Of a stretch of DNA of 58,221 nucleotides, positions 39,237 through 41,943 are shown piece by piece. Under the pieces are notes generated by a model, which made no database searches, was not told the DNA's origin, and saw only the letters and a list, made by a program, of their open reading frames with translations. The number at the start of each line of letters is the position of its first letter. Within the stretch, counting starts at the first letter, position 1. A program made the position numbers and the translations under genes. The DNA lies in contig JAGBDC010000012.1 of assembly GCA_017937705.1 (NCBI GenBank), positions 1-58,221 of the forward strand, written 5' to 3'. The DNA is from Alphaproteobacteria bacterium (GTDB lineage Bacteria; Pseudomonadota; Alphaproteobacteria; RF32; CAG-239).

Positions 39237-39244
39237 AATATATA

Positions 39245-39318
39245 TGGAGCGAGTAACGGTAATCGAACCCGCATTTAAAGCTTGGGAAGCTCTCATTCTA
39301 CCATTGAATTATACTCGC
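39245..39318 (-). tRNA. tRNA-Gly (anticodon CCC)
   Basis: On the minus strand the acceptor arm GCGAGTA pairs with TACTCGC, with encoded CCA. The anticodon loop TTCCCAA on stem AGAGC/GCTTT gives CCC, and the T arm is GCGGGTTCGATTACCGT-like. 74 bases. Confidence 0.92.
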
Positions 39319-39415
39319 TTTACTGGAGAACAGTTTACTATCAAAAAGATGATAAAATCAATAAAAAAATTAGTTTCGTCCCATAACAAAGTTTGAAATC
39401 TGTCAAAAAAAGAAC

Positions 39416-39443
39416 TTGCTTTTTATATCGTATCGTTTAACTT
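39416..39443 (+). promoter_or_regulatory. possible promoter of the structured RNA
   Basis: TTGCTT (39416-39421), 16 bases, TAACTT (39438-39443). Transcription would begin at about 39450, just at the first hairpin. Confidence 0.4.
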
Positions 39444-39452
39444 AAAAAACAA

Positions 39453-39667
39453 GGCAGGTTGGTGTCTGCCCCGAGGGTTCGAAGCCTCATCTATGGTTGC
39501 CAATACCATTGGCGTAAAAACTCCTTCTGGTCTGTTGACTGGAAGGAGGCTAATAAGTTTATATACGGGATAAGTGTATGCTTATACCCGTTTTGAATCA
39601 ATATGCCCACTATTCCATAGAATAGCTTCGAACTTCCAGTCGCCTTTGCACCAAGGCGATTTTTTAT
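39453..39667 (+). ncRNA. structured RNA of unknown class ending in a terminator, upstream of a methyltransferase
   Basis: About 215 bases with no open frame but many complementary segments. Hairpins: GGCAG/CTGCC (39453-57 and 39466-70); GCCAAT/ATTGGC (39499-504 and 39508-13); CTCCTTC/GAAGGAG (39521-27 and 39542-48); ACGGGATAAG with CTTATACCCGT (39565-74 and 39581-91, one bulge). Long-range helices: GTTCGAAGC (39477-85) with GCTTCGAAC (39625-33), stacking on CTATGG (39491-96) with CCATAG (39615-20). A further GACTGGAAG (39537-45) pairs with CTTCCAGTC (39633-41). This last helix would form a pseudoknot and compete with the third hairpin and with the base of the terminator. The terminator is TCGCCTT/AAGGCGA (39640-46 and 39653-59) plus TTTTTT. 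It ends 13 bases before the methyltransferase start, so it may be an attenuating leader or a separate small RNA. Known classes I can recall do not fit. Confidence 0.6.
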
Positions 39668-39680
39668 TGGGAAGAAAACT

Positions 39681-40718
39681 ATGGGTACAGGAAATAAATA
39701 CCTAACAAAAGCAAAAGATATAAAAGACGATGAGTTTTATACGGGATATGAAGATATCAAAAAAGAGTTGATTAACTATGCTAAATATTTTAGAGGAAAA
39801 GTCATTTATTGCAACTGCGATGACCATAACGGAATCGGCTTAGGAACTCCTAAATCTAATTTTTTGAAATATCTGGCAGATAATTTTGAGGCTTTCAAAA
39901 TCAAAAAAGTTATCGCTACTCACTACGAAAAAGATAAAGACACTTCAACAATGTATATTTTAGATAAGGACAATACCGGCGACGGTATTGCCTGTTTTGA
40001 AGATATTGCAGAAATACCCATGAAAGGAAACGGCGATTTTAGAAGTGATGAATGTATTGAGTTGCTTAAGCAAGCAGATATTGTTATTACTAACCCGCCC
40101 TTTTCATTATTTAGAGAATACGTGACTCAATTAATGGAATATAAAAAGAAATTTTTGATTATAGGTAATAAAAATGCCTTATCATATAAAGATATCTTTT
40201 CACTTATAAAATATAACAAAGTATGGTTAGGATATAATTCTCCAAGCGATTTTACATACAAAGGAGAACCAACAAAAAAAATCACAGGATTAACCAGATG
40301 GTTTACCAATATTGAAAACAGCAAAAGAAATGAAAAATTAAATACCGGTAAAAAATATTACGGATATGAAGAAATGTATCCTAAATATGATAACTATGAT
40401 GCCATAAATGTTGATAAAGTAAATGATATACCAATGGATTATTACGGAGTTATGGGAGTACCAATAACCTTTTTAGATAAATATAACCCTGAACAATTTG
40501 AAATTACAGGAATAACAAAAACATGGTTTGGAGGAGCTTCAAAAATATACCCGAAACAGATACAAATTGATAAAAACGGCAACAGAAAAGAAGTTTCAAA
40601 ATTAAATGACGGAGCAACATTAGAAGTTAATCAAATAAATAATCAAACATATTATGAAGTTGCTGGCAAAAAATATATTCAATTATACGCTCGTATTTTA
40701 ATCAAAAGGAAACAATAA
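39681..40718 (+). CDS. EcoRI-type adenine-specific DNA methyltransferase
   Basis: The 345-residue protein resembles the EcoRI methylase family. A DDEFYTGYEDIKKEL motif near the N-terminus is followed by VIYCNCDDHNG (an AdoMet-binding region near residue 50). The catalytic NPPF is at residues 138-141 (DIVITNPPFSLF), the N6-adenine signature. A C-terminal region holds DYYGVMGVPITFLDKYNPEQ and a basic end. It should methylate a DNA recognition sequence to protect it. It starts 13 bases after the terminator of the structured RNA. The nuclease gene follows by 2 bases, so the two form one operon. The restriction target cannot be read from the sequence. Confidence 0.9.
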   Translation: MGTGNKYLTKAKDIKDDEFYTGYEDIKKELINYAKYFRGKVIYCNCDDHNGIGLGTPKSNFLKYLADNFEAFKIKKVIATHYEKDKDTSTMYILDKDNTGDGIACFEDIAEIPMKGNGDFRSDECIELLKQADIVITNPPFSLFREYVTQLMEYKKKFLIIGNKNALSYKDIFSLIKYNKVWLGYNSPSDFTYKGEPTKKITGLTRWFTNIENSKRNEKLNTGKKYYGYEEMYPKYDNYDAINVDKVNDIPMDYYGVMGVPITFLDKYNPEQFEITGITKTWFGGASKIYPKQIQIDKNGNRKEVSKLNDGATLEVNQINNQTYYEVAGKKYIQLYARILIKRKQ

Positions 40719-40719
40719 A

Positions 40720-41943
40720 ATGACTATGAAAACATCACAACCGCTCATTACAATTAGAGATTTAGTTAAGGGCTATCAGGATAACGGCGAAAAAGGAGTT
40801 GTCGCTTATGGCGGCAAACTAAACGTTCGTCCTGCTTATCAACGTGCTTTCGTTTATAATCCCGACGACAGGGATAGAGTTATGCTCTCCGTTTATAACA
40901 ATATGCCCTTAAACAGCATATATTGGGCAATCAATCCCGACGGTAGTTATGAAGTTATTGACGGACAGCAAAGGATAATGTCTATATGTCAATTTATTAC
41001 CAATGATGACGGTTACGGCAACCCTATTGCTATTGATTTTAACGGCAGAAATACACAAACATTTGAGGGACTATCTGCTGATAAGCAAAAAGATATTTTA
41101 GATTATAAATTACAAGTTTATGTTTGCGACGGAACCGATGACGAAAAACTGGACTGGTTTCATACCATAAATATTGCCGGCAAACAAATGACAAACCAAG
41201 AATTATTAAATGCAAATTATACCGGACAATGGCTAACTTCTGCGAAACAATTTTTCTCAAAGAAAAATAATAATGAAGCTATCGCCATTGCATATTATAA
41301 TAATGATGATAAAAAAACTTTATTAAATCTTTCTGCCGATAGAGTTTTAGGAGATATGGGAAGTTTGGGAGAAAAAGCAAATCGCCAACTGTTATTAGAA
41401 CTTGCTCTAAATTGGTGTATAAATGCCAATCCGTTGGAATATGTGCAAATTAAGGACTATATGGGAAAACATCGTTTTGATAACGATGCCAGAGAGCTTA
41501 TTGAATATTTTAAAAGAGTAATTGACTGGGTAAAGCATACCTTTATAAATTATCGTAATGATATGAAAGGACTGGATTGGGGAATATTATATAATTCTTA
41601 TCATCACATAAATTTTGATGCGAAAAAAATTGAAGAAAAACTAAAATATCTCTACGATTTATACGATACCGACCCTGACGGATTAAAGAAAAAAGGGTTT
41701 TATGAATATTGTCTGTCTGATGACCGAACTCTTATTTGGCATCGAGCCTTTAGTGATAAGCAGAAAAAACAAGCTTATGAAAATCAAGGTAAAAAATGTG
41801 CTAAATGTCGTAAACATTTTCCGTTAAATAAGCTTGACGGGCATCATAAAAAGGCTTTTGCAGACGGCGGAGAAACAACCATTGCCAACTGTGTAATGCT
41901 TTGCGAAAACTGTCATGCAGATTTTCACGCTCAAAAAAGATAA
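40720..41943 (+). CDS. DUF262-HNH nuclease (GmrS/GmrD-like)
   Basis: The 407-residue protein has an N-terminal DUF262 (ParB/sulfiredoxin-like nucleotidase) domain with NVRPAYQRAFVYNPDDRDRV, YEVIDGQQR (D81 to R85) and FHTINIAGKQMTNQELLNA. A C-terminal HNH nuclease has C360 and C363 (CAKC), the catalytic DGHHKK near 373-378, then C395 and C398 with H399 (CENCHADFH). DUF262-HNH fusions include single-chain type IV restriction enzymes of the GmrSD kind, which normally cut modified DNA and need no methylase. Here an EcoRI-type methylase is coupled two bases upstream, so it may act as the restriction partner. AAAGGA precedes the ATG by 9 bases. A terminator follows. Confidence 0.9.
   Translation: MTMKTSQPLITIRDLVKGYQDNGEKGVVAYGGKLNVRPAYQRAFVYNPDDRDRVMLSVYNNMPLNSIYWAINPDGSYEVIDGQQRIMSICQFITNDDGYGNPIAIDFNGRNTQTFEGLSADKQKDILDYKLQVYVCDGTDDEKLDWFHTINIAGKQMTNQELLNANYTGQWLTSAKQFFSKKNNNEAIAIAYYNNDDKKTLLNLSADRVLGDMGSLGEKANRQLLLELALNWCINANPLEYVQIKDYMGKHRFDNDARELIEYFKRVIDWVKHTFINYRNDMKGLDWGILYNSYHHINFDAKKIEEKLKYLYDLYDTDPDGLKKKGFYEYCLSDDRTLIWHRAFSDKQKKQAYENQGKKCAKCRKHFPLNKLDGHHKKAFADGGETTIANCVMLCENCHADFHAQKR

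Follow-up and report, generated by a model that had tools for sequence, protein, structure and literature searches.

The stretch of DNA analysed here, referred to as the window, comprises 58,221 nucleotides of an alphaproteobacterial contig and carries, on its forward strand, a structured leader RNA of 215 nt (39453 to 39667) followed by the genes of an EcoRI-type adenine DNA methyltransferase and a nuclease (Table 1). The minimum free energy of the RNA is -84.2 kcal/mol, compared with -54.2 +/- 4.2 kcal/mol for 200 dinucleotide shuffles, none of which equalled the native fold (z -7.21). Covariance model R1, which was built from sequences that include the window leader itself, matches it with 186.7 bits (E 5e-48).

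The architecture described in the initial annotation was located in the leader. The four or more local hairpins correspond to P1, P4, P5 and P6b, the alternative long-range helix of 9 bp is P7, and the clean terminator is present, with its T-run ending at 39667, 13 bases before the methylase ATG at 39681, as had been noted. The region was also described as lacking an open frame, and the five ORFs of 26-45 aa that overlap it in six frames include nothing credible. The two long-range helices had been given as 9 and 6 bp; P2 indeed has 9 bp, while P3 has 7 bp here rather than 6. P7 was said to compete with a hairpin and with the foot of the terminator, and its 5' strand is in fact common to P5, with four bases of its 3' strand lying in the foot. 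Two further conserved pairings, P2h and P8, were absent from that annotation; in the window, each overlaps its long-range partner (P2h/P2 and P8/P3) by one edge base. P6 has 3 bp in the window leader and is longer in other members. Its internal loop AATA/AATA (39551-39557 and 39599-39604) is nearly symmetric and belongs to the better-conserved unpaired parts, and from its conservation it is a candidate contact or binding site.

Table 1. Leader RNA, its helices, and the adjacent features of the window (pairing counts from alignment A4, described below)
Feature	Position	Strand	Observation
Putative promoter block TTGC...TTTAAC	39416..39441	+	immediately 5' of the RNA; similar block in restriction-system copies
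Structured leader RNA (whole)	39453..39667	+	fold z -7.2; R1 match; no Rfam match
P1 hairpin	39453-39457/39466-39470	+	97.7% paired; 6/6 aligned pairs changed on both sides
P2h hairpin GAGG/CCTC	39473-39476/39485-39488	+	P2 5' strand in loop; 100% paired, nearly invariant
P2, 9 bp	39477-39485/39625-39633	+	100% paired (96 rows); 6/6 counted pairs changed on both sides
P3, 7 bp	39490-39496/39615-39621	+	98.6% paired; 7/7 pairs changed on both sides
P4 hairpin, then GTAAAA	39499..39513	+	92.0% paired in 3 counted pairs
P5 hairpin	39521-39532/39537-39548	+	93.1% paired; mismatches mostly mid-helix; takes P7 5' strand in alternative state
P7 5' strand GACTGGAAG	39537..39545	+	100% of cells paired; 4/9 pairs changed on both sides
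P6	39548-39550/39605-39607	+	99.2% paired; 5/5 pairs changed on both sides (A4)
P6b hairpin inside P6	39565-39591	+	weakly conserved
P8 hairpin CTATT/AATAG	39610-39614/39621-39625	+	P3 3' strand in loop; 98.1% paired, mostly invariant (A4)
P7 3' strand CTTCCAGTC	39633..39641	+	CTTC can pair with GAGG (P2 extension); AGTC = terminator foot
Intrinsic terminator	stem 39638-39646/39653-39661, T-run to 39667	+	96.2% paired; 6/7 pairs changed on both sides
Ribosome-binding site GGGAAG	39669..39674	+	complementary to CTTCC of P7 3' strand
EcoRI-type adenine DNA methyltransferase, cargo gene 1	39681..40718	+	PF13651 EcoRI_methylase, E 3.5e-103
GmrSD_N (DUF262) + HNH nuclease, cargo gene 2	40720..41943	+	PF03235 E 1.2e-19, PF01844 E 2.5e-9

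Members and distribution of the leader family

By sequence comparison, the window leader is one member of a so far unnamed, multi-copy family of structured-RNA leaders. A DNA search of 153 genomes of the host's family returned seven more near-full-length or split homologues before restriction-modification genes, together with many short matches at other places, and all 12 short-match loci inspected (L009-L020) hold full elements of the same layout with other genes behind them. Alignment A2, consisting of 16 members, gave rise to model R1, and RNAalifold found 26 of its 52 pairs changed on both sides. R1 matches occur in 126 of the 153 genomes of the host's family (E<=0.01) and in 127 of 154 genomes of its order (E<=0.001). 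In a class sample of 337 genomes, 20 match, 16 of them outside the host's order, and the only two matches in a phylum sample of 398 genomes are both alphaproteobacterial. Across these samples, the family appears centred on one alphaproteobacterial order and patchy elsewhere in the class. The restriction version was found on five public contigs assigned to uncultured Alphaproteobacteria, Rhodospirillales, Rhodospirillaceae or a proteobacterium.

The number of copies per genome can be very high. The relative G109 has 97 R1 matches and the relative G080 at least 150 (150 of 150 scored candidates), both at E<=0.1, a threshold at which weak matches, either terminator-only or antisense shadows, may sit among them; all 55 copies inspected in stretches of these two genomes reach at least 72 bits. 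The host genome contains five clear copies among seven matches, the two left uncounted being one apparently terminator-only match and one antisense shadow. The elements collected for comparison number 218 and represent 210 distinct sequences, 55 of which come from the two high-copy genomes.

The Rfam search suggested in the initial annotation was carried out, and the window leader matches no family of Rfam 15, none even at E<=1. The same search on nine relatives' loci returned tRNAs only, and in two further loci a single match (E 4.9 and E 2.2, respectively) fell well short of the cut-offs. Identification with tmRNA or 6S RNA is rejected on the ground that neither model matches and that the leader is multi-copy and gene-linked. 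Plasmids yielded no leader match, viral contigs searched with one pattern yielded none, and a phage record contains one 31-base match to the window copy. An unannotated, 'UNVERIFIED' human-faecal record labelled 'Bacteriophage sp.' (L244 4001-4200) matches over 167 of 187 bases and carries a 760-aa autotransporter gene (PF03797) about 200 nt behind the element; it is probably a bacterial fragment.

Genes behind the leaders and the link to restriction systems

The elements lie directly before same-strand ORFs, as attenuator- or riboswitch-type leaders do. An ORF of at least 40 aa follows on the same strand within 120 nt in 186 of 191 elements and in 209 of the 218 of the larger set, leaving nine of 218 without one; the five such cases among the 191 include L145, the leading member of a tandem pair, and L100, which the contig end cuts off. 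Counted over distinct elements, 201 of 210 have an ORF behind them, and the median distance from leader to ORF is 28 nt. A stricter count, requiring an ATG-started ORF of at least 60 aa at 5-45 nt, is satisfied by 190 of 216 elements compared with 518 of 4320 random places (12%) in the same loci. On the 5' side, where 400 nt were examined, an ORF on the opposite strand is found at 73 of 191 elements. A distant alphaproteobacterium carries two tandem elements with no clear ORF behind (L226 2216-2671).

The cargo, as judged from sequence, consists largely of surface and secreted proteins, together with cytoplasmic and unknown ones. Of the 201 distinct proteins encoded downstream, a crude sequence rule assigns 160 to one of three export classes: 93 have a signal- or membrane-like N-terminus, 40 carry a pilin motif and 27 are lipoprotein-like. 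The other 41 belong to none; when G080 and G109 are set aside, 107 of 147 fall in these classes. Pfam was scanned with 102 representative downstream proteins, and among the best 25 of 63 families, the overlapping families OMP_b-brl (13), Opacity (12) and Surface_Ag_2 (10) are accompanied by Glycos_transf_2 (5), Glycos_transf_1 (4), Autotransporter (4), SHOCT (4), RgpF (3), PEGA (3), PilS (2), Bundlin (2) and EcoRI_methylase (1). In G109, a pilin-like gene stands behind 24 of 25 inspected copies, the remaining copy being cut by a contig end. In G080, about 28 of 30 copies precede related small secreted proteins, the one that was scanned being without a Pfam match. These genomes, of about 1.6 Mb each, hold very large families of small-secreted and pilin-like genes, dispersed and in both orientations (L083-L091; L092-L100). 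The five copies of the host precede the restriction pair, a beta-barrel-like protein, a lipoprotein-like protein, an HTH_3 regulator and a pilin-like protein, respectively. An HTH_3 (XRE-type) gene with a leader is present in the host (L233, C11) and in a genome outside the order (L223, L224), a hint from sequence that this regulator may be a conserved member of the gene set.

The link to methylase and nuclease genes is narrow. Among 32 scanned loci with EcoRI-type methylases, including three whose upstream DNA is too short for a leader to be seen, 5 carry it, and all five belong to the host's family; four further alphaproteobacterial methylase loci (L024, L026-L028) have no leader. Restriction-modification genes stand behind 7 of the 201 distinct ORF-linked copies. 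The initial reading of a cis-acting leader that limits methylase and nuclease expression is therefore upheld as to its cis-acting layout and abandoned as to a device specific to this gene pair. Absence of the element upstream of other copies of the operon, which had been named in advance as evidence against it, holds for most of the operon family, and a methylase-specific control RNA is rejected in view of the 5 of 32 methylase loci against the many other cargo genes.

Exchange of cargo behind a retained leader can be followed in the close relative G079 (L237). The DNA around the restriction genes of the window (39244-41943) is 95-99% identical there, both on the side of tRNA-Gly and the leader and on that of tRNA-His/mutL. 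At the same site, genes for N6_Mtase (605 aa) and Methylase_S (369 aa) proteins replace the methylase/nuclease pair, with identity stopping at the first codons and resuming where the nuclease gene ends. In addition, G079 has about 1.1 kb of extra DNA directly upstream of the tRNA-Gly gene. The two leaders show 18 differences; P2 and P3 account for 13 of these, with changes in either strand of both helices. Variation of this kind is also seen within genomes, where 28 of 30 copies in G080 and 23 of 25 in G109 have distinct P3 strands, all or nearly all of them still paired. Free drift explains the varied P3 strands, because P6b is equally variable (mean entropy 1.5-1.6 bits for both), and no diversifying selection of the sort expected of a private barcode was seen on P3 strands in these two genomes.

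Conserved pairings and ribosome-binding sites

Helix counts were based on alignment A4, consisting of 101 members, 96 of them distinct after five identical rows were merged. The pseudoknotted structure (P1, P2h, P2, P3, P4, P7, P6 and P8) is paired in 98.7% of cells, with 33 of 44 pairs changed on both sides, compared with 77.9% paired in shuffles and 37-46% with slid partners. Compensatory changes are present at every counted pair of P2 and P3, so the covariation in homologous loci on which the initial annotation had staked its claim is borne out, with the qualification that P2, P3, P5 and the terminator were counted on an alignment that had been fitted to these helices. P7, P2h and P8 lie outside the search model, which therefore gave no help to their pairing counts. 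P7 pairs without exception in the 96 distinct members of the alignment and shows covariation, a fixed-column count that is fair; the corresponding figure of 206 fully paired among 210 distinct elements takes the best 9-mer pair in each and is optimistic. The pairings P2h and P8, being almost invariant, are only weakly tested by such comparison.

The nested alternative (P2 extension, P5 and terminator) is paired in 96.6% of cells, with compensatory changes in P5 and in the terminator (A4), and a T-run of at least 5 T in 8 bases ends 212 of 218 elements and 204 of 210 distinct sequences. Two conserved and mutually exclusive sets of helices, one of which includes a terminator, are thus present as P5 plus terminator and as P7. 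Bases of P7 pair into both P5 and the terminator foot and vary together with both, a hallmark of two-state RNAs; the states may not be fully exclusive, since P7 might form alongside a shortened terminator. Nearest-neighbour energies for the window are -43.3 kcal/mol for P5 and terminator and -23.1 kcal/mol for P7, P6, P8 and P6b, with pseudoknots left out. Upstream, TTGAC occurs within 60 nt in 124 of 218 family members, and a promoter score of at least 9/12 is reached by 54% of members compared with 20% of shuffles; the window's own promoter block was missed by the scan at this threshold. An explanation by a leader peptide was discarded, as neither the start codon before GACTGGAAG nor a stop is conserved in sequences compared by eye.

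The 3' strand of P7 is also related to the ribosome-binding sites (RBSs) of the genes behind. The complement GGAAGTT of the conserved AACTTCC was found in the 22 nt before the start codon of 74 of the 186 leader genes, against 2 of the 421 other genes in the same loci, and the shorter GGAAG occurs in the RBSs of 99 and 16 genes of these two sets, respectively; in the distinct-sequence set, GGAAGTT occurs in 73 of 201 and the RBS classes are much alike. Where the leader strand reads CTTCC, the RBS has GGAAG in 103 of 187 members and GGAGG in 7. In the nine copies that read CCTCC, which lie outside the order and stem from few genomes, it has GGAGG in six and GGAAG in one. The association of RBS class with strand class (Fisher P 4e-6) is overstated, since the copies are related. 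Two CTCCC members, L168 and L179, have a matching GGGAG strand in P7 and the downstream sequences GAGAGTT and GGGAGTT, respectively, L168 being without a clear ORF at its RBS-like site; exceptions with CTCCC are L244, which has GGAAGTT, and the XRE copy of the host, which has GAGGTGGG. GGAAG is absent in 84 of the 187 CTTCC members, and 42 have none of the motifs. Clear exceptions to the rule are L212, L214, L215 and L219, the first two having retained a plain AGGAGA. Since CTTCC/CCTCC resembles an ordinary anti-Shine-Dalgarno sequence, some of this complementarity is to be expected, and translational control by the leader is plausible but secondary.

Proposed switch, rival explanations and related systems

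The comparison of family members establishes the two pairings and how they overlap, the terminator, the location ahead of a gene and, for about half of the genes, complementarity to the RBS. From these features, we infer a transcription start, a direction of switching, a signal, a step at the RBS and an action in the cell. The element probably represents a new RNA family whose members act in cis as 5' leaders and determine expression of the gene that follows, through transcription attenuation and perhaps also through translation control. Transcription would start just 5' of P1. In the OFF state, P5 and the full terminator would form, GAGG would hold CTTC, and transcription would end before the gene. 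In the ON state, GACTGGAAG would leave P5 and pair with CTTCCAGTC as P7, continuous with P6, and the pseudoknots P2 and P3/P8 would lock this arrangement; P7 would open the terminator foot and occupy the strand able to cover the RBS, allowing the gene to be transcribed and translated. OFF would be the default and the P7 state would need a stabiliser, because the P5-plus-terminator set is the more stable by nearest-neighbour energies. The reuse of the same switch before many surface, secreted and defence genes makes a shared cellular signal likely.

A wider interpretation, offered tentatively, is that of a genome-wide controller of surface genes, in which up to 150 or more copies in a single 1.6-Mb genome would subject pilins, outer-membrane and small secreted proteins, sugar transferases and restriction systems to one common signal sensed by RNA. 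It would operate by a three-way exchange of CTTCC among its own GGAAG, GAGG and the RBS, with private locking helices in each copy preventing cross-pairing. Such copy numbers are far above those usual for leader RNAs. If true, an undescribed RNA class would govern much of the cell surface in a group of mostly uncultured alphaproteobacteria, and the question of which signal precedes the display of pili, porins, glycans and defence systems would become testable, with the exclusive pairings offering exact pairing tests.

The stabiliser could be, instead of a small molecule, an RNA-binding protein or a modified transcription complex that binds the pseudoknotted core, in the manner of put, EAR and similar processive antitermination RNAs; this sub-case of the attenuation reading, whose odds overlap with it, is rather unlikely. 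The element is large and mostly helical, with few conserved unpaired bases outside AATA/AATA, GTAAAA and parts of the P1 loop, and surface operons form a gene set that would suit such control; there is, however, no protein candidate, and the local overlap of terminator and P7 already constitutes a simple switch. Alternatively, the product could be a terminated sRNA acting in trans, or in both cis and trans, with AACTTCC pairing to the GGAAGTT RBSs of other genes of the set. The promoter-like 5' flank, the strong terminator, a fold that could outlast release, and complementarity to RBSs common to much of the gene set agree with this. It is nevertheless improbable, as a free sRNA would not need to lie 5-45 nt before a same-strand gene, where 190 of 216 copies lie, and the RBS class tends to shift together with the adjacent leader.

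A mobile DNA element or recombination site (MITE-like, or a cassette end) with an incidental RNA fold would account for the dispersed matches in G080 (at least 150) and G109 (97) and for the swapping of cargo genes behind a retained leader. This is very unlikely in light of the compensatory changes that the terminator and each of the two exclusive RNA states display, the sense orientation of the leader to the following gene, and the lack of matches in plasmids and, with one pattern, in viral contigs. The genes behind the copies in the high-copy genomes are, moreover, related (24 of 24 ORFs of G109 have the pilin motif, and about 28 of 30 in G080 resemble one another), because of which leader and gene were probably duplicated together. 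A constitutive insulator, in which promoter and terminator block upstream read-through, or an mRNA-stabilising 5' structure is hardly credible: it fits the T-run terminator that ends 212 of 218 copies, yet, in the absence of regulation, a terminator placed behind a gene's adjacent promoter could do no more than silence that gene, and the conservation of the exclusive helix P7 would be left unexplained.

A 2017 paper reportedly presents 224 candidate RNAs; that survey stands outside the literature comparison, which covered titles and abstract openings and contained nothing recognisable as this leader. By keyword, PMC8040213 gave no hit for Azospirillum, Proteobacteria, pilin, outer membrane or restriction. 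Devices that control restriction-modification, such as C proteins and translational leaders, are alike in that the present leader would limit methylase and nuclease expression, and differ in that restriction systems are not its only cargo. The processive antitermination RNAs put and EAR are likewise structured and lie close to the 5' end of operons with surface or mobile functions. They let polymerase pass terminators, whereas the present element contains a single terminator, which overlaps one of its own pairings.

In the regulons of c-di-GMP riboswitches, one leader class precedes type IV pilins, surface proteins and lipoproteins, and the present family resembles the c-di-GMP-I/-II (GEMM) regulons in this respect. 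It differs in having no Rfam match to either class. GGDEF matches occur in 37 of 40 genomes, those in the host genus being weak, and the relative G011 has 10 leader matches (E<=0.01) and no detectable GGDEF domain, which makes c-di-GMP less likely as the signal. With respect to transcription-attenuation riboswitches in general, the family stands apart in lacking a known ligand or Rfam match and in having locking helices P2 and P3 whose sequence is free and differs in most copies of a genome, while it shares with them the 5' leader position, a conserved pseudoknotted domain, the overlap of a terminator with an alternative helix, complementarity to the RBS and occurrence before many operons.
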